From Nostoc sp. PCC 7107 (GTDB taxonomy: Bacteria; Cyanobacteriota; Cyanobacteriia; Cyanobacteriales; Nostocaceae), in assembly GCF_000316625.1 (NCBI RefSeq), contig NC_019676.1, forward strand, positions 4,482,501 to 4,546,500: a stretch of 64,000 bases of DNA, read 5' to 3'. Below are positions 38,905 through 46,074 of the stretch, piece by piece. Below the pieces are notes generated by a model. The model made no database searches and had not been told where the DNA came from. It was given only the letters and a program-made list of their open reading frames with translations. Both the position numbers and the translations under genes were made by a program. Within the stretch, counting starts at the first letter, position 1, and every line of letters begins with the position of its first letter.

Positions 38905-38965
38905 AAAAGTATAGATGCGTAGTAGCTTGCGGCAAGCCGCTGCGCGTCTACATACTTCATAACTC
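38905..38965. repeat. Palindromic repeat at the pyrD 3' end
   Basis: TAGATGCG...GCTTGCGGCAAGCCGC...CGCGTCTA forms a nested imperfect palindrome between the pyrD stop and the convergent gene. Repeats containing GCTTGCGGCAAGC-like cores are dispersed in Nostoc-type genomes. It may serve as a bidirectional terminator, but there is no T-run. Confidence 0.5.
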
Positions 38966-39688
38966 TTCTACGGGAAAGAACTCCTTAGTTTTTTCCGAGA
39001 AACTCCAAGCTATACCATCAGGATCGCGGTTGCGTGTCCATTCAGGAAAGTCTGGATCATTGCGCCGTTTGTATACAGTGCTGGAATAAACATTCAATCG
39101 TTTCGCTAATTCCGATTGAATCAGAGAGCCAAAAATTAACTGTTTTGCTAAATTTGGTTTTGCTTCTGCATGATTTGCTGGCGGTGCTAATTCAATCTCT
39201 GGTTCTAATTCTGCTACTACTGCATGATTTGCTGGCGGCGCTAAAAGCGATCGCGCAGATGTTGTTACAGGTTGAGCCGACAAAGTTTTGACAGGCTCGC
39301 TACTGTCAAGGATATTACCCAAAATACTGGCTGTGATAAAGTAATAAACTTCACTACCAGAGCCAGCATTGACTATACTTGCACCAAACTCTGAAGCTTT
39401 GCCATCGAGGTAGCGTTTTGCTGTTGGGCCAGGAAAACTTCCCCGAATTGCCAAATCCATTGGTGTAATTTTGCCCTGGTTTTCCCGAACTAATTGATGG
39501 AAAACCGGGTTAACTCGCTGACACCATTGTTGCCATTGATATTGTTGCCAGATATTGAAACCAATAATCAAAACAACCAGCGCCAGCAAAAATCTCCAGG
39601 TAGAAACCAGGAAAATTATTAAAAACGATATTGGCAAAAGTAGAACGAGAAAACCCTTCCCGCTACTTTCCATTGTTTTTTCACTCAT
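38957..39688 (-). CDS. Membrane-anchored protein with C-terminal helix-turn-helix-like region
   Basis: A 243-residue protein of unknown function. It has a hydrophobic N-terminus with one long or two short membrane segments (GFLVLLLPISFLIIFLV and FLLALVVLIIGF, about 8-45). A soluble middle part follows (PMDLAIRGSFPGPTAKRYLDGKASEFGA), then a linker with a duplicated LAPPANHA unit. The C-terminal domain reads QSELAKRLNVYSSTVYKRRNDPDFPEWTRNRDPDG, which looks like a helix-turn-helix of the kind that selects by a short recognition helix. I chose ATG 39688; TTG 39703 and ATG 39673 are alternatives. It lies just upstream of, and divergent from, the Y RNA/Ro60 cluster. Confidence 0.6.
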   Translation of the reverse strand: MSEKTMESSGKGFLVLLLPISFLIIFLVSTWRFLLALVVLIIGFNIWQQYQWQQWCQRVNPVFHQLVRENQGKITPMDLAIRGSFPGPTAKRYLDGKASEFGASIVNAGSGSEVYYFITASILGNILDSSEPVKTLSAQPVTTSARSLLAPPANHAVVAELEPEIELAPPANHAEAKPNLAKQLIFGSLIQSELAKRLNVYSSTVYKRRNDPDFPEWTRNRDPDGIAWSFSEKTKEFFPVEEL

Positions 39689-40007
39689 GCCGATTTTTGC
39701 CAAGCGAATTTTTTGGGAAATAATTTATTATATTGGCAAAAATTGGGACGTGTTTTTGTATCCTTTGGCAAAATTACGGAAAAATCTTTAAGTGCGATCG
39801 CTCATCTGAGCCACTTAACACCCAACCAATCTAGATTTTCGGCAAAAATAGGCAAAAATATTTTCCCTCCCAAACTCTCCTCAGCAAAAACAAAATTTTT
39901 ACATAAACATTAAGAAACATTTCCCTACTCAAATTCCTTCAACCTCCGCGCCACTCCGCGTAAACCTCAGCGCCCCTTTGCGTTTAAAAATAATCCCTCT
40001 CTTCCTC
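39689..40007. other. Intergenic region between the HTH protein and the Y RNA cluster
   Basis: No gene is seen. The part near 39935-39990 (CCTCCGCGCCACTCCGCG and CCCTTTGCGTTT) is the common cyanobacterial dispersed repeat also seen near 42404 and 53117. The right end leads into the promoter proposed at 40008. Confidence 0.5.
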
Positions 40008-40036
40008 TTGACATTCACAACTACATATACTACATT
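40008..40036 (+). promoter_or_regulatory. Putative sigma-70-type promoter for the Y RNA / rsr cluster
   Basis: A perfect -35 box TTGACA (40008-40013), a 17-bp spacer and TACATT (40031-40036) as -10 box. Transcription would start near 40043, about 30 nt before the first Y RNA acceptor stem at 40075. This is inferred from consensus only. Confidence 0.5.
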
Positions 40037-40074
40037 AATACTACAAGCTGATTTTCCCAAAGGAGTTAGCCTCC

Positions 40075-40205
40075 GTAGCGGATAGCTCAAATAACAGAGC
40101 GCCCACCTTGCCTGTAAAGGCCGACATATCGAGGGTTATCGCAAATAACTTAAACATCCTTGAGAAAAAATTCTGGAGGTGCAGGTGTAAATCCTGCTCC
40201 GCTAC
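40075..40205 (+). ncRNA. tRNA-like Y RNA (YrlA type), copy 1
   Basis: The ends pair perfectly over 8 bp (GTAGCGGA 40075-40082 with TCCGCTAC 40198-40205). A D arm follows (GCTC 40085-40088 / GAGC 40097-40100), and a T arm (GCAGG-TGTAAAT-CCTGC, 40181-40197) abuts the acceptor. The anticodon-arm region is replaced by about 75 nt. That insert holds CTTGCCT-GTAA-AGGCCGA, TCGAGGGTTATCGC, and later AACATCCTTGA, which can pair with TCGAGG-GTT leaving an AT bulge. The same pieces occur in copies 2 and 3 but with AACATCCTT first, so the strand order here is permuted. It is not a usable tRNA. I take it as a Ro60-binding Y RNA because rsr lies next door. Confidence 0.8.
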
Positions 40206-40241
40206 ACCCCAACAAAGTGCTGAGTTAAAAATAATTTTAAT

Positions 40242-40365
40242 CTGGTGGGTAGCTCAATCTGGTAGAGCAATGAACATCCTTAGTTCACAAGCTTGCCTGA
40301 AAAGGCTGAAGAATCGAGGATTATCGTTAATTCATGAGTTGTAGGTTCAAATCCTATCCCACCAG
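40242..40365 (+). ncRNA. tRNA-like Y RNA (YrlA type), copy 2
   Basis: The acceptor-like 8-bp stem pairs CTGGTGGG (40242-40249) with CCCACCAG (40358-40365). The D arm is GCTC...GAGC with a GG-containing loop, and the T arm has a canonical loop TTCAAAT. The inserted Ro60 module runs from AACATCCT (40273-40280) through the hairpin GCCT-GAAA-AGGC (40295-40306), then TGAAGAATCGAGG and ATTATCG (to 40326). CCTTAGTTC pairs with GAATCGAGG in 8 of 9 positions. The strand AGGCTGAAGAATCGAGG resembles the conserved G-N-C-G-A-A-G part of Y RNAs. It lies 36 nt after copy 1, probably on the same transcript, and is processed by unknown nucleases. Confidence 0.85.
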
Positions 40366-40375
40366 CCAAACCTAA

Positions 40376-40401
40376 TTTGAGATTTAATCCAAAATCTCAA
40401 A
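40376..40401. repeat. Perfect 10-bp inverted repeat between Y RNA copies 2 and 3
   Basis: TTTGAGATTT (40376-40385) and AAATCTCAAA (40392-40401) flank a 6-nt loop, followed by ATCCAAAATCCAAAAT. The motif is a common Nostoc-type dispersed sequence; here the hairpin could separate or mark processing of copies 2 and 3. Confidence 0.6.
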
Positions 40402-40422
40402 TCCAAAATCCAAAATTTTTAT

Positions 40423-40547
40423 GTGGCAGGTAGCTCAGTCGGTAGAGCGCCTAAACATCCTTATTCACCCCTTGCCTGAAAAGTCCGAAGAATGAGGGTT
40501 ATCGCCTTCCACGCGGGATGTCGCAGGTTCGATTCCTGCCCTGCCAC
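40423..40547 (+). ncRNA. tRNA-like Y RNA (YrlA type), copy 3
   Basis: The most tRNA-like copy. It has an 8-bp acceptor (GTGGCAGG 40423-40430 / CCTGCCAC 40540-40547), a D arm GCTC-AGTCGGTA-GAGC with the GG pair, and a T arm GCAGG-TTCGATT-CCTGC (40523-40539). The Ro60 module starts AAACATCCTTATTC, and CCTTATTC pairs over 8 bp with GAATGAGG. Inside is CTTGCCT-GAAA-AGTCCGAAG, then GGGTTATCGC. AGUCCGAAGAAUGAGGGUUAUC closely resembles the 5' strand of vertebrate Y RNAs (GGUCCGA...GUGGGUUAUC in Y4). After the module a 7-nt loop CTTCCAC on a CGC/GCG stem imitates an anticodon arm with UCC. rsr starts 38 bp after the 3' end. Confidence 0.87.
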
Positions 40548-40558
40548 CTTTCATTTTT

Positions 40559-40570
40559 GCCCGCAAGGGC
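40559..40570 (+). promoter_or_regulatory. Small leader hairpin before rsr
   Basis: GCCC-GCAA-GGGC forms a tight GNRA-capped hairpin directly between Y RNA copy 3 and the GGGAG ribosome-binding site of rsr (40572-40576). It could be a processing or attenuation signal. Seen in sequence; role inferred. Confidence 0.4.
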
Positions 40571-40584
40571 CGGGAGATGAAACC

Positions 40585-42186
40585 ATGAACTATAAGTTCT
40601 TTACCAAAAACAAGACAACCACCCCACAAAATCAGCCCATCCCTGGACGAGAAGCCGAGATGATTCAAGGACGTTCCGGTGGCTGGATGTTTGATGCTGG
40701 TTTATGGAAAATGCTGCGGCGTTGTCTGTTAGTTGGGACAGCCCAAAGCACCTACTACGCTGGTAAACAAGAATTAACTGAAGATTTTGTAGCGGTTGTC
40801 AACCAAGCTGTTGCCGAAAATCCCCGCCGTGTTGCAGAAGAAATTATCTATGCCAGCGATGGACGCGCTATCAACAACAGCGCACCTATCCTTGCTTTAG
40901 TGTTGCTGTCGATGGGTGAACGACCAGAAGCAAAACAAGCTTTTGGTGAAATCTTCCCTCAAGTGATTCGTACAGGTAGCCACTTTTACGAATGGTTGAA
41001 CTACACCAAATCTTTGCGGGGTTTTGGTAAAGTTGTGCGGGAAGCTGGGAAAACTTGGCTATCACGGGAAGATGTCAAAGGTTTAGCTTACCAACTGTTG
41101 AAATATCAACAACGCCAAGGCTTCACCCACCGCGATGCTTTGCGGTTGTTCCACGTCAAACCACCTACAGAAAATCACCGTCAATTATTTGAATGGGTTG
41201 TCAGAGGTTGGGAGGAATTACCAACAGAGATACCCTCACAAGCTTTGGCGCAGATTTGGTGGTATGAATGGCTCAAGCGCAACCCTGGGCAAACTCACGA
41301 AGCCATTTTGCAAGGACGCTTAACCCACGAAATGGCTGCACCCGTGGGCAATATGGACAAAGCTGCTTGGCAGTTGCTATTTCAAGAAATGCCAATCGGT
41401 GCAATGCTGCGTAACCTGGGTTCACTCACGGAACTGGGTGTGTTACGTGCTGACGAAAGCACCAACTTGCAGCGTGTTGAAGGAGTTCTCAACAACAAAG
41501 AACATCTGCGTAAAGGTCGCATTCACCCCATTGATGTTTTGAAAGCCCTCAAAACCTACGAGTCTGGCGGTAGACTTGGACGCAGTAAGAAAACTTGGAA
41601 CCCAGTTCCTCGCATCGTAGACATCTTAGAAAAAGCTGTTGAGTTGTCTTTTGATGTGGTAGAAACCACGGGCAAAGTTTTCATGCACGCTGTAGATGTT
41701 TCCGGTTCGATGGGTAGCTTAGTTGCAGACATGGGACTAAGTTGCTGTGAAATTGCCACGACAATGGCACTAGTTACAGCCAAAGCCGAGAAAAACTACA
41801 TGATTCGCGGCTTTGCTACCGAGTTCCGGGACTTAAATATCACAGCCAAAGATAGTTTTAGTTCAGCGGTGCGTAAAGCCAGCAATCAAAACTTCGGTGG
41901 TACAGATGCCTCTGTCGCTTACGACTGGATGATTAAAAATAAGTTCAAAGCTGATTTAGTCTGCTTCTGGACTGACTCAGAAAGCTGGGCGGGTTATCAA
42001 CATCCCTCTCAAGCGTTGCAGGAGTACCGCAAAAAAGTCAATCCAGATGTTAAGGCTGTATACGTCACTCTGACACCATACCGCATCACCTTGGTAGATC
42101 CACAAGATCCACTGTCTTGGGATTTGGCAGGATTTGACCCTGGTACACCTCGCATCATCCAAATGTTAGCGACAGGTGAATTGTAA
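40585..42186 (+). CDS. rsr: Ro60 orthologue (Rsr), TROVE and VWA domains
   Basis: A 533-residue orthologue of the Ro60 autoantigen, a ring protein that binds Y RNAs and the ends of misfolded RNAs, and in bacteria works with exoribonucleases such as PNPase in RNA decay. The TROVE domain covers about 1-365 with GGWMFDAGLWKMLRRCLLVG, STYYAGKQELTE, YASDGRAINNSAPILAL and a helical HEAT-like array. The VWA-like domain follows with an intact MIDAS: D371-x-S373-x-S375 (HAVDVSGSMGS), the Thr/Asp in GGTDAS (about 440-441) and CFWTDSES. The start is ATG 40585, preceded by GGGAG. Three tRNA-like Y RNAs lie upstream and one downstream, as expected for a Ro RNP locus. No rtcB is seen nearby. Confidence 0.95.
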   Translation: MNYKFFTKNKTTTPQNQPIPGREAEMIQGRSGGWMFDAGLWKMLRRCLLVGTAQSTYYAGKQELTEDFVAVVNQAVAENPRRVAEEIIYASDGRAINNSAPILALVLLSMGERPEAKQAFGEIFPQVIRTGSHFYEWLNYTKSLRGFGKVVREAGKTWLSREDVKGLAYQLLKYQQRQGFTHRDALRLFHVKPPTENHRQLFEWVVRGWEELPTEIPSQALAQIWWYEWLKRNPGQTHEAILQGRLTHEMAAPVGNMDKAAWQLLFQEMPIGAMLRNLGSLTELGVLRADESTNLQRVEGVLNNKEHLRKGRIHPIDVLKALKTYESGGRLGRSKKTWNPVPRIVDILEKAVELSFDVVETTGKVFMHAVDVSGSMGSLVADMGLSCCEIATTMALVTAKAEKNYMIRGFATEFRDLNITAKDSFSSAVRKASNQNFGGTDASVAYDWMIKNKFKADLVCFWTDSESWAGYQHPSQALQEYRKKVNPDVKAVYVTLTPYRITLVDPQDPLSWDLAGFDPGTPRIIQMLATGEL

Positions 42187-42200
42187 AAAAATTGAAGCTT

Positions 42201-42222
42201 GAAGTGTGAATTTTCACACTTC
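42201..42222. repeat. Perfect 10-bp palindrome after rsr
   Basis: GAAGTGTGAA and TTCACACTTC flank only two bases, 15 bp past the rsr stop and 24 bp before Y RNA copy 4. It could end the rsr message or mark processing, though no T-run follows. Similar ACTTCACACTTC pieces occur around 18115-18140, so it may be a dispersed repeat. Confidence 0.55.
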
Positions 42223-42245
42223 AGACTTCACACTTCATAATTCAT

Positions 42246-42357
42246 GGCGGGTTATCCCTTATTCGCAACTTGCCCTTTCGGGGACGAAGAATGTAGGGTT
42301 ATCGGTTAACGTCTCTACCATCTCCGGGGACTAGCGGGTTCAATTCCCGCACCCGCC
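42246..42357 (+). ncRNA. tRNA-like Y RNA (YrlA type), copy 4, without D arm
   Basis: The ends pair perfectly (GGCGGGT 42246-42252 / ACCCGCC 42351-42357) and the T arm is canonical (GCGGG-TTCAATT-CCCGC, 42334-42350), so 7+5 bp as in normal tRNA. No D arm is present: the Ro60 module begins right after the acceptor. CCCT.TATTC pairs with GAATG.T.AGGG. The inner hairpin is CTTGCCC-TTTC-GGGGACGAAG, and GGGTTATCGG closes it. A hairpin GTCTC...GGGAC stands where the anticodon or variable arm would be. Location 59 bp after rsr and the shared module support a fourth Y RNA. Confidence 0.8.
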
Positions 42358-42503: not shown

Positions 42504-42530
42504 AAACCCGTCTTGGCGGGTTTAGTTTTT
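42504..42530 (+). terminator. Rho-independent-type terminator after Y RNA copy 4
   Basis: AAACCCG-TCTTGG-CGGGTTT hairpin (42504-42523) followed by AGTTTTT. It would end transcription coming from the Y RNA/rsr side; the A-run on the other side would let it work for the convergent gene ending at 42624 as well. Between it and copy 4 lies a dispersed repeat (GTTTCACGCAAAGCCGCAAA). Confidence 0.7.
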
Positions 42531-43469: not shown

Positions 43470-43749
43470 GCAAAATTCCCCTTGATTAAGATGTAACAAG
43501 AATTGTCAAGACAGTTTTTTGGTGTATGAGAATATATCTGAATATTCCCACTTTGTTAATTAAGCAACATTGATAACTTATTAATTACCCTACTAAATAC
43601 CAGTTTCAGCAAGTTACACAGTTAAAAATTTGTTAGTGATTTGTTATATTTTTGTAATGAACAATGTTGCTAAAAACTCGTATAGCTAATTCATCCGAAA
43701 TTTATTCGGTAGAATGTGGCTATTAAGACATTGTTGTCAAAGTTACAGG

Positions 43750-46074
43750 ATGAAATTTATGTCAGGTCAGCTAGAGAATCAAAATCTGTCTAAAACATGG
43801 CATCGAAAGCTGGCAAAAGAATGGGAAATAGACCGTATACTGACTGACTTAGAAGCTATAACCAAAAACCGATACAGGCAGAATACTAAGAAAGACTTGC
43901 TGTTAGGATTACTTTGTGGACATAGCTTAAAAGAGATTGGTAAATATTTACATAAAAATCATGCTGTTGTCAGAGCCGGATTAAGCAATATCTATCGCGA
44001 TATTGAAACGTTAACAGAAGAATCTGATAAGACTGTTAAAGCTAGTAATCTTGTTTACATTTTGCAAAAACATGGCTACCGCAAAGGTGTAGAATCATCT
44101 TCTAAACATTGCCTCACCATTATTAATAATCTGCCATCGCCAACCTACACAGAATTTATTGGGCGCGAAGCAGATATGAGAATATTACTAGAACGCCTTT
44201 TGCCAGATCATGGCGCTCACATGATTACAGTACATGGTATTGGTGGCGTAGGTAAAACAGCATTAGTTTTAGCAGCAGCCTATCTCTGTTTAAAAGCTAG
44301 TCGTGAAAATTTGAATCTTGCACCTAAATTTAATGCGATTATTTTCACTTCTGCAAAACAACAAGAACTCATTCCCCACGGAATTTTGCAACGCCAGCAG
44401 GGACAGCGTAATCTGCGAGAAATTTTTCGAGAGATTGGTAATGCGCTTGGCGACCCGACAATTATTCAATCTCCTCCCAATGATCAATCTGACCGTGTAC
44501 GCCAAATTCTCTCTAGACAGCGCACACTATTGATTGTGGACAATATGGAGACGATAGAAGATAGAAGCGGAGTGATTGAGTTCCTTTATAATCTACCGAT
44601 TTGTGTCAAAGTAGTAATTACTACCCGTGAGCGAATTGCACTGCTACCAATTAGCCTGCAAAATTTGACCGTAGAAGATGGGATGCAGTTAATTCAGCAA
44701 CAAGCTGGAGAAAAAGGTATAACTATCAATGATCAAGAATCTCAGCTACTCTACAAAAGCACTGGTGGGATTCCTCTAGCAATTGTCTACGCCCTTGGTC
44801 AAGTATCGAGTGGTTATTCTCTGAGTTCAGTATTGGCAAAACTAACTAATGCTAGTGGTGATGTGGCTCGTTTTTGCTTTGAACAATCTGTGCAAGGAAT
44901 TGCTGGACAGCCAGCTCACAAGTTGCTGATGTCACTGGCTATTTTTCCTAACTCTCCAACTCAAGCGGCTGTGGCTGAGGTGGCTGGGTTAACAAATGCA
45001 CCTGATTCTATCAATGATGGCTTGGCACTTTTGCAGCAACTTTCTTTAGTCAATCAAAATCCAGAGACGAAGCGATATGAAATGCTTTCTCTGACTCGTG
45101 AGTATGCTTTGGCAGAATTGAAAGCTAACCCAGATTTTGCTAGAGAAGCGCGGCGGTGTTGGGTAAGGTGGTATTTAGATTTTGCTAATAGTTACGCTGG
45201 CGAAGATTGGGAAAAGTCGAAACATTACGAAAGGCTAGAAGTAGAAGAGGTAAATTTGCGGGCTGTACTTTATTGGTGTAGAGATGAAGACCATTATGAA
45301 GAAGTGAGAGATTTAGGTTTATTGTTGAATCATTACGCGAATCTTTATGCTTACTGGGACGATCGCCTAGATTGGTGGCAATGGCTTGTGGAACAATCAG
45401 AAAGACGGGGTGAATGGTCATTTTTGGTGAAATTCATCATCCGCAAAACTTGGCTATTAATTCGGGAATGTTCCCAGAAGAGTCTTCAAGAAGCTGAAGA
45501 AATGTTGCAACGGGCATGGGTGTTACGCGACCATGCAGATTTATGCGATCAAGCTGACTTAGCTGAAAATATCGCCAGGCTCAAAATCAGACGAAAAAAT
45601 TATGTAGAAGCACGTAAATGGCTGGATATAGAACAGAAGTTAGTAACTCAAGCGAATTTAACTGAGCAGAAACATATCCGTTATTACATTCCTGTACTTT
45701 ATCATCGGGCAGTTATCTTACACAAAGAAAATAAATATTCCGAAGCGAAAAATCTGTTCCATGAAGTGATGGAATGTGCTAAAAAAATTAACTGGTATCG
45801 AGTTATTAATTCGGCTCAAAATTGGCTGGCGGATATCGCAATTGATCAAGGCGATCGCGATGGCGCTCAACAGTTATTAACTAAAGGTGTAACTATCGCT
45901 CAAAGAAGCAAAAATAAGCGGCGTTTAGCCCGTTACCAACGCTCTCAGGCGAAATGGGAGAAAAAATGGGGTAGTGCTGATCAAGCTGATAAATTTGCCA
46001 GAGAAGCGATAGATGCTTTTGAATATTTAGGTATGATCAAAGATGTTGAAGAAATTCAGTTGTTGCTGAATTAA
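43750..46074 (+). CDS. NB-ARC STAND ATPase with helical repeats
   Basis: About 774 residues. The N-terminal 90 residues contain a helix-turn-helix-like stretch (KKDLLLGLLCGHSLKEIGKYLHKNHAVVRAGLSNIYRDI). NB-ARC follows: a conserved TEFIGREADMRILLERL lead-in, Walker A GIGGVGKTAL (K169), Walker B RTLLIVDNMETIED, sensor VVITTRERI and GGIPLAI. A winged-helix region and C-terminal TPR-like helices (about 480-770) complete a STAND switch. Such proteins act as ATP-gated sensors in cyanobacterial regulation or conflict systems; the trigger and output here are unknown. ATG 43714 gives 12 more residues; I prefer 43750 after TTACAGG. An XisI relic follows directly. Confidence 0.85.
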   Translation: MKFMSGQLENQNLSKTWHRKLAKEWEIDRILTDLEAITKNRYRQNTKKDLLLGLLCGHSLKEIGKYLHKNHAVVRAGLSNIYRDIETLTEESDKTVKASNLVYILQKHGYRKGVESSSKHCLTIINNLPSPTYTEFIGREADMRILLERLLPDHGAHMITVHGIGGVGKTALVLAAAYLCLKASRENLNLAPKFNAIIFTSAKQQELIPHGILQRQQGQRNLREIFREIGNALGDPTIIQSPPNDQSDRVRQILSRQRTLLIVDNMETIEDRSGVIEFLYNLPICVKVVITTRERIALLPISLQNLTVEDGMQLIQQQAGEKGITINDQESQLLYKSTGGIPLAIVYALGQVSSGYSLSSVLAKLTNASGDVARFCFEQSVQGIAGQPAHKLLMSLAIFPNSPTQAAVAEVAGLTNAPDSINDGLALLQQLSLVNQNPETKRYEMLSLTREYALAELKANPDFAREARRCWVRWYLDFANSYAGEDWEKSKHYERLEVEEVNLRAVLYWCRDEDHYEEVRDLGLLLNHYANLYAYWDDRLDWWQWLVEQSERRGEWSFLVKFIIRKTWLLIRECSQKSLQEAEEMLQRAWVLRDHADLCDQADLAENIARLKIRRKNYVEARKWLDIEQKLVTQANLTEQKHIRYYIPVLYHRAVILHKENKYSEAKNLFHEVMECAKKINWYRVINSAQNWLADIAIDQGDRDGAQQLLTKGVTIAQRSKNKRRLARYQRSQAKWEKKWGSADQADKFAREAIDAFEYLGMIKDVEEIQLLLN

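Follow-up and report, generated by a model that had tools for sequence, protein, structure and literature searches.

Probable Ro60 partner RNAs in unpermuted tRNA form at the ro60 locus of Nostoc sp. PCC 7107

Ro60 is a ring-shaped protein that deals with damaged RNA in RNA quality control and is known in humans as an autoantigen. In the cyanobacterium Nostoc sp. PCC 7107, a gene for this protein (ro60; the product is also called Rsr) lies with three tandem RNA stretches upstream and one downstream in a region of 64,000 nucleotides (contig NC_019676.1, positions 4,482,501 to 4,546,500), which is referred to below as the window and provides the numbering used here. Comparison of this locus with its relatives indicates that the RNAs are probably Ro60 partners in unpermuted tRNA form, each of which would combine tRNA-type ends with a loop-closed, putative Ro60-binding stem (Y stem) as an extra arm. 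The RNAs are conserved and linked to Ro60, the anticodon triplet varies freely, and covariation shows that the folds of types 1 and 3 are real.

The identity of the protein is clear. Its open reading frame matches the Pfam domains vWA_Ro60 (E 1.2e-37) and TROVE (E 5.6e-18) and, over nearly the full length, Rsr of D. radiodurans (2nvo, E 3.3e-72) and Ro60 of Xenopus (1yvp, E 2.9e-70), so that both domains and the full-length likeness to Rsr/Ro60 are present. It is the single Ro60 match in the Nostoc genome (6.33 Mb, one contig), and its nearest relatives among named genomes come from Nostoc and allied genera. Two other solved TROVE domain-containing proteins (PDB 9l5y and 9kop) are distant from it (E 4e-10), and no Ro60 was found in viral contigs with the query used.

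A protein search yielded 169 Ro60 relatives in named genomes, from which the best 80 loci were taken. In these loci and the window, a pattern for the internal module shared by the RNAs had 230 matches, every one of them on the Ro60 strand and none opposite; three of these matches (loci L063, L070 and L080) are chance-like by sequence and place. Alignment A1 comprises 126 module sequences, after removal of near-identical ones, of nine copies of type 1 and of the three chance-like matches. RNAalifold found 13 pairs in A1, six of them with two-sided changes, and 15 hand-written pairs hold in 96.0% of cells and show 34 two-sided cells versus 8.0 in shuffles. A covariance model built from A1 (R1), for which window copies 2-4, and not copy 1, served in the training set, gave four matches in the Nostoc genome at E<=1, all at the locus (copies 3, 2, 4 and 1 with 69.2, 58.1, 57.9 and 32.2 bits), and none elsewhere at this E value, 150 of 2524 first-look candidates having been scored. 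Across the 80 loci, many of whose sequences were training members, R1 matched 311 times; the 300 matches listed are spread over 79 loci, none of them on the strand opposite Ro60, and locus L059 gave no match at E<=1. Among the matches listed, locus L049 has six copies (4004, 4189, 4379, 4587, 4869 and 6685). In three loci, copies of 176-178 nucleotides have a longer insert (L072 4317-4492, L074 422-599 and L077 4631-4807) that, as judged by eye, appears to include one extra common hairpin 5' of the module.

The bodies that surround the module differ among the copies (Table 1). Copy 3, whose 3' end lies 37 nucleotides from the ro60 start codon, was analyzed in alignment A3, composed of the 51 unique sequences among 53 copies found directly 5' of ro60, whether orthologous or replacing. 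In A3, 97.5% of cells are paired across an acceptor stem, a D arm, a Y helix, a Y hairpin, an anticodon-type hairpin and a T arm, and 15 pairs have two-sided changes, compared with 4.4 in shuffles and 3-5 with slid partners. Within the anticodon stem, one pair covaries among C-G, A-U and U-A and another fails to pair in 26 of the 51 rows. For type 1, 98.3% of the cells in alignment A2 (n=30: 29 loci and the window, with L023 excluded) are paired, two-sided changes occur at nine pairs versus 4.2 shuffled and 0-2 in slid controls, and RNAalifold found the same five helices unaided, slightly shorter. This type opens its module with the CTTGCC hairpin and closes it with the CCTT strand, an order shared by 30 loci and the window (31 of 81 sources), so that the long Y helix is formed downstream; the helix has nine pairs, with 94.8% of cells paired and three pairs showing two-sided changes. 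Copy 2 is the only copy recognized at Rfam thresholds, scoring 49.4 bits against the tRNA family RF00005 with a long insert (cut-off 29). Copy 4 has a T arm and no D arm; alignment A4 (28 aligned of 45 unique bodies without a D arm) is 99.3% paired, with one two-sided pair versus 0.3 shuffled, and covariation is uninformative for type 4 because the sequences are too alike. Short, weak matches to tmRNA ends (RF00023, 11.1-26.6 bits, cut-off 47) sit inside or between RNA copies in the window (42280-42350) and in two other loci (L052 4392-4442 and L014 6674-6744).

Most of what a first-pass annotation of the window had claimed about this layout agrees with these results: the Ro60 orthologue is intact, the four RNA stretches occupy the places given for them, each of which has an R1 match, and several paralogues with different bodies do share one locus. 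It had also assigned an acceptor stem, a T arm and the common module to every copy, which holds for all four, except that the module strands of copy 1 stand in another order; the arm inventory needed correction, since acceptor, D and T arms occur in copies 1-3 and copy 4 lacks the D arm.

Table 1. Coordinates of features at the ro60 locus, in window numbering; Y elements are putative.
Feature	Position	Strand	Basis
Sigma70-type promoter, TTGACA-N17-TACATT, 5' of copy 1	40008..40036	+	10/12 consensus matches
RNA copy 1 (type 1): acceptor stem, D arm, Y hairpin, permuted Y helix, T arm	40075..40205	+	R1 32.2 bits; alignment A2
Copy 1 Y hairpin, CTTGCC-loop-GGCCGA	40107..40124	+	alignment A2
Copy 1 permuted Y helix, strands inside 40128-40139 and 40155-40164, CCTT strand 3'	40128..40164	+	9-pair helix in A2
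RNA copy 2: tRNA body (acceptor, D, T arms), encoded 3' GCCA, module insert	40243..40368	+	RF00005 49.4 bits
Copy 2 Y module	40276..40324	+	R1 58.1 bits
RNA copy 3, proximal: acceptor stem, D arm, Y stem, anticodon hairpin, T arm	40423..40547	+	alignment A3
Copy 3 Y module	40455..40502	+	R1 69.2 bits
Copy 3 anticodon-type hairpin, CGC-CTTCCAC-GCG, 7-nucleotide loop, U33	40503..40515	+	loop-length test; A3
Ro60/Rsr protein, 533 amino acids	40585..42186	+	Pfam domains, structure-sequence matches, genome search
RNA copy 4 (type 4): acceptor stem, Y stem at D-arm place, extra hairpin 42311-42331, T arm 42334-42350	42246..42357	+	R1 57.9 bits; A4
Copy 4 Y module	42254..42302	+	R1 57.9 bits
Terminator-like hairpin 3' of copy 4	42504..42523	+	pattern match only; 6 such sites in region vs 4.0 in shuffles

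The stem of vertebrate Y RNAs pairs CUUGAC with GGUCCGAG and has one bulged C. The Nostoc module resembles it, with CUUGCC opposite GGCCGAAG; however, vertebrate Y RNAs have their ends at the opposite side of the stem, whereas the Nostoc RNAs have a tRNA body, and the vertebrate family Y_RNA (RF00019) gave no match among those listed at E<=5.

The module keeps company with Ro60 well beyond Nostoc. In 194 cyanobacterial genomes, 19 carry the module and 26 a TROVE protein, with 18 having both, one the module only, eight Ro60 only and 167 neither (Fisher P 2.7e-18, relatedness ignored). The sole module without TROVE (genome G048, locus L143) is weak, at 33.8 bits. The eight genomes with Ro60 only comprise G030 (a short fragment), G127 (L146, with tRNA genes on both sides) and six from other classes, three of which have a full-length match to YrlA, the Y RNA of other bacteria, within about 1 kb of Ro60 (47.6, 42.7 and 38.4 bits, all short of the 69-bit threshold). 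In the laboratory strain Picosynechococcus sp. PCC 7002, ro60 is SYNPCC7002_RS15900 on plasmid pAQ7, with three tRNA-bounded stretches upstream: the first has an R1 match of 34.3 bits, a GCCA end and, by eye, an anticodon hairpin, the second scores 11.9 bits (E 0.46), and the third has no R1 match. Two further observations concern placement: Ro60 lies between or adjoining groups of tRNA genes at L146, L152, L153 and L154, in four other genomes of the phylum, and genome G143 has a further module copy far from its Ro60 (L144 1067-1120; G143:C3:861366; 59.6 bits).

Chen reportedly found, in 2014, likely Y RNAs close to Ro60 in more than 250 species. YrlA resembles the Nostoc RNAs in adjoining Ro60 and in combining a Ro60-type stem with a D arm, a T arm and an acceptor-like stem, and D and T arms of tRNA type are present in copies 1, 2 and 3 here, copy 4 having the T arm only. 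As modeled by Rfam, however, YrlA ends in the Y stem, places the T arm before the D arm, closes its acceptor-like stem with a loop and has no anticodon arm, whereas the Nostoc RNAs have their predicted ends in the acceptor stem, place the D arm first, close the Y stem with a loop and often keep an anticodon hairpin. Given these ends, their order runs from the acceptor through D arm, Y stem and T arm back to the acceptor, which is not that of YrlA. The first-pass annotation had likened the four RNAs to YrlA and proposed a search with the published model. The search did not uphold membership in YrlA in the sense in which Rfam models the family (RF02553): the two window matches, at 24.2 and 22.6 bits, fall below the threshold of 69 and each span two neighboring copies, and the threshold was reached in none of the 194 cyanobacterial genomes. 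The annotation was correct that tRNA-like RNAs accompany Ro60, encoded beside its gene, and it overlooked the unpermuted topology, the anticodon hairpin of many relatives and the permuted Y stem of copy 1.

On these models, YrlA and the Nostoc RNAs have the identical circular order of parts, opened at opposite ends. Superposition of YrlA on tRNA in solved structures is likewise described as a circular permutation (PMC11472068). Such a permutation predicts that the YrlA model should match from the second half of one copy to the first half of its neighbor. Five arrays were selected by their number of copies, six in each, and straddling matches were found in three of them (L052, 52.1 and 41.1 bits; L014, 36.0 and 35.9; L043, 31.8), and none at E<=1 in arrays L049 and L060. 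Because neighboring ordinary tRNAs can also yield a straddling match, the five arrays were compared with an ordinary tRNA array of the Nostoc genome, in which the same scan gave one such match, at 30.8 bits. Further straddling matches occur twice in genome G125, once in G042 and in PCC 7002 (L159 3569-3699, 31 bits). All are below the 69-bit threshold, the best being that of L052. The array comparison weakens the window's own straddling matches and strengthens those of its relatives, with no net effect on the likelihood of the readings.

The part of the RNAs most like tRNA lies next to the module. Directly 3' of the conserved module end TTATC there is a short stem with a 7-nucleotide loop. Among 80 unique segments taken from copies with a D arm, its two inner pairs are formed in 48 at loop length 7, versus 3, 5, 19, 5, 4 and 4 (of 65-80 segments) at lengths 4, 5, 6, 8, 9 and 10; when nucleotides 5' of the module are included, four pairs form in 21 segments at length 7 versus 0-2 at the others. 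This excess places the Y stem in the 5' strand of the anticodon arm. When the segment from module to T arm was compared with real anticodon arms, the likeness of 36 of 95 unique segments was reached by at most one of 20 shuffles (two of 97 segments were excluded for length), which is sufficient to indicate descent from tRNA arms but not to assign every copy. In the 50 lettered proximal rows, position 33 is always T and position 37 is a purine in 49. Of all 135 columns, the three with the greatest variability are positions 34-36, where the alignment shows 16 triplets.

Like tRNA (RF00005), the RNAs have acceptor, D and T arms and, in many copies, a U33-type anticodon loop, but they differ from it in an extra arm of about 50 nucleotides, a variable anticodon and, in some types, the absence of the D or anticodon arm. 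In 33 strict orthologues, picked by the stem CGC, a TGGC start, the letter at 32 and T33, the triplet positions changed 8, 6 and 7 times, compared with means of 1.17 per RNA column and 5.6 per ro60 fourfold site; the sum of 21 versus 16.9 expected is not an excess (P 0.24). A conserved anticodon, the mark of a decoding tRNA, is thus missing, and because the triplet varies at about the synonymous rate, the RNAs are not decoding tRNAs. Positive selection on the anticodon was considered and rejected: the 51-row set, with 17, 16 and 17 changes, mixes paralogues, and the excess is gone in the 33-row set. A free triplet in a preserved loop frame fits a structural or decoy role, without demonstrating positive selection.

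These data also bear on the idea that the RNAs are intron-bearing tRNA genes that decode once the module has been spliced out. ARAGORN in intron mode reads copy 2 as tRNA-Asn(gtt) and copy 3 as tRNA-Gly(tcc), and some relatives have a 12-base exact match to the Met(CAU) anticodon arm. Yet intron-mode calls are equally frequent after shuffling (70 of 182 versus a mean of 72.5, range 68-81), for which reason the isotype calls were discarded. Beyond the unconserved triplet, copies 1 and 4 have no recognizable anticodon arm, and ordinary Asn(gtt) and Gly(tcc) tRNAs are already in the genome, along with Gly(gcc), Pro(tgg), Met(cat) and five Leu anticodons, so that decoding by the four RNAs is very improbable. 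Against RF00005 (threshold 29), copy 3 has only a partial match of 17.8 bits next to the 49.4 of copy 2, and copies 1 and 4 have no match among those listed. Elsewhere in the genome, a dense tRNA gene array at positions 3484810-3487444 (L112) has many second, diverged isotype copies, including one Asn(gtt) with encoded CCA.

A single promoter would read the three tandem RNAs, ro60 and then the fourth RNA, which tRNA-processing enzymes would probably excise from the transcript. When the candidate promoter 5' of copy 1 is compared across 29 loci and the window, 26 of these 30 sequences have exactly TTGACA-17-TACATT and the remaining four differ slightly; promoter-like sites across the region overall are not in excess (4 versus 4.1 in shuffles). 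In 40008-40075 and the same stretch of the 29 loci, conservation is strong beyond the hexamers, around and after the -10 element (TACTACATTAATNNTACAAG), as a regulator site would show. The arrangement could also be taken to mean that the upstream elements are a cis-acting leader, T-box or processing signals that regulate ro60 rather than free RNAs: they lie between promoter and ro60 on one strand, and the final copy keeps one constant distance to the ro60 start codon in 43 of 53 proximal copies. Such a leader is improbable, since copy 4 lies downstream of ro60, some loci have six copies, and the whole cloverleaf covaries with its own acceptor stems.

In Salmonella, rsr, yrlBA and rtcBA form an operon that responds to cut tRNAs (PMC7790460), and Nostoc resembles it in having Ro60, a tRNA-like RNA and RtcB in one genome and, in a relative, a stress-induced Ro60 gene; Nostoc differs in that RtcB is encoded elsewhere (2371818 and 2497047) and in the RNA topology. 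Among the 194 cyanobacterial genomes, RtcB occurs in all 26 with Ro60 versus 51 of 168 others, and within the family of Nostoc in 14 of 14 versus 5 of 11. In Chlorogloeopsis fritschii PCC 9212, the TROVE transcript is reported to rise dramatically under erythromycin (PMC6424891), and in far-red coculture the TROVE gene (log2 4.5) and an RtcB gene (3.5) were both up (PMC11423583); these reports concern PCC 9212, and the Chlorogloeopsis locus compared here (L044) is that of strain PCC 6912. Tethering of PNPase by Y RNA (RYPER) is known in Deinococcus (PMC8058203; PMC8394870).

From the same observations it could be argued that the RNAs are decoys, with Ro60 holding tRNA-shaped RNAs with a free anticodon that would trap anticodon nucleases, or what these produce, for transfer to RtcB or PNPase. 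The constant U33 and near-constant purine 37 that frame the three most variable columns agree with this, as does the link of RtcB to Ro60 genomes, and the tRNA domain of YrlA has been named a possible competitive nuclease inhibitor in a study that ties the operon to cut tRNAs (PMC7790460). However, that study found YrlA itself uncut (PMC7790460), copies 1 and 4 have no recognizable anticodon arm, and the triplet changes no faster than ro60 fourfold sites and so gives no sign of an arms race. A decoy role is therefore unlikely.

The preferred reading, that the RNAs are Ro60 partners in unpermuted tRNA form, must be weighed against several points. The Y stem was called by shape, place and a known Y RNA motif, and expression, processing and Ro60 binding of the RNAs are predictions from sequence. 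Folded alone, copies 1-3 do not reproduce all of the arms described here: copy 1 forms other pairs in place of the permuted helix, copy 2 lacks the anticodon stem drawn by ARAGORN, and in copy 3 the anticodon region is paired elsewhere or open; the folds of copies 3 and 4 are little better than those of shuffles (z -1.89 and -1.62). The shuffle controls for covariation leave relatedness out of account, and RtcB follows lineage. As for YrlA, the window's straddling matches score below the ordinary tRNA pair, and homology of the Y strands with YrlA of other classes was not found, the module being unlike the strands of L151 and L152 and like one of two in L153 (P 0.02). Rotated YrlA came nearer to the consensus, but ordinary tRNAs did similarly (62.7 versus 50.3-65.7), which makes the rotation test uninformative.

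If the RNAs are Ro60 partners, the Y stem of copies 2 and 3 would belong to the anticodon arm, in its 5' strand or its loop, that of copy 4 would stand where tRNA has the D arm, and that of copy 1 would have its strands in permuted order; by analogy with YrlA and animal Y RNAs, the stem would bind the outside of the Ro60 ring. The same analogy suggests that the tRNA-like part may recruit PNPase, tRNA-modifying enzymes or RtcB, or mimic tRNA for them, through which Ro60 would act on damaged tRNA or other structured RNA in translational stress. That the tRNA-like part ties Ro60 to tRNA damage or decay in this way is put forward tentatively, and it is plausible from the layout that one Ro60 ring is served by several adaptor RNAs, as the first-pass annotation suggested. 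YrlA of other bacteria would be the same molecule, circularly permuted. A wider proposal, which is distinctly speculative, is that of a cyanobacterial family of five-armed tRNAs, in which cloverleaves gained a Ro60-binding stem several times in different places within tRNA-punctuated Ro60-operon arrays; tandem copies would be the source of permuted YrlA, from the second half of one copy and the first half of the next, and the variable anticodon loops would be changing tRNA baits.

Neighboring genes can be noted briefly. A protein of 248-253 amino acids adjoins the RNA array on the opposite strand, in a position kept in Chlorogloeopsis (38957-39703 in the window, 3347-4108 in L044); the window copy has no Pfam match. 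Downstream of the Ro60 locus, an NB-ARC/TPR protein (STAND-like ATPase) is encoded at 43714-46074 on the plus strand.

No account of cyanobacterial Y RNAs or of an unpermuted form was recognized among the open-licence papers listed, and there may be earlier notice of either. Known bacterial Y RNAs show this layout only in circularly permuted form, and the unpermuted form in Nostoc may show their origin. It offers a concrete route from tRNA to a Ro60 partner RNA, which would explain the odd, permuted shape of YrlA. The reading further predicts tRNA-type processing of these RNAs and, through RtcB and the erythromycin response, would tie Ro60 to tRNA damage.

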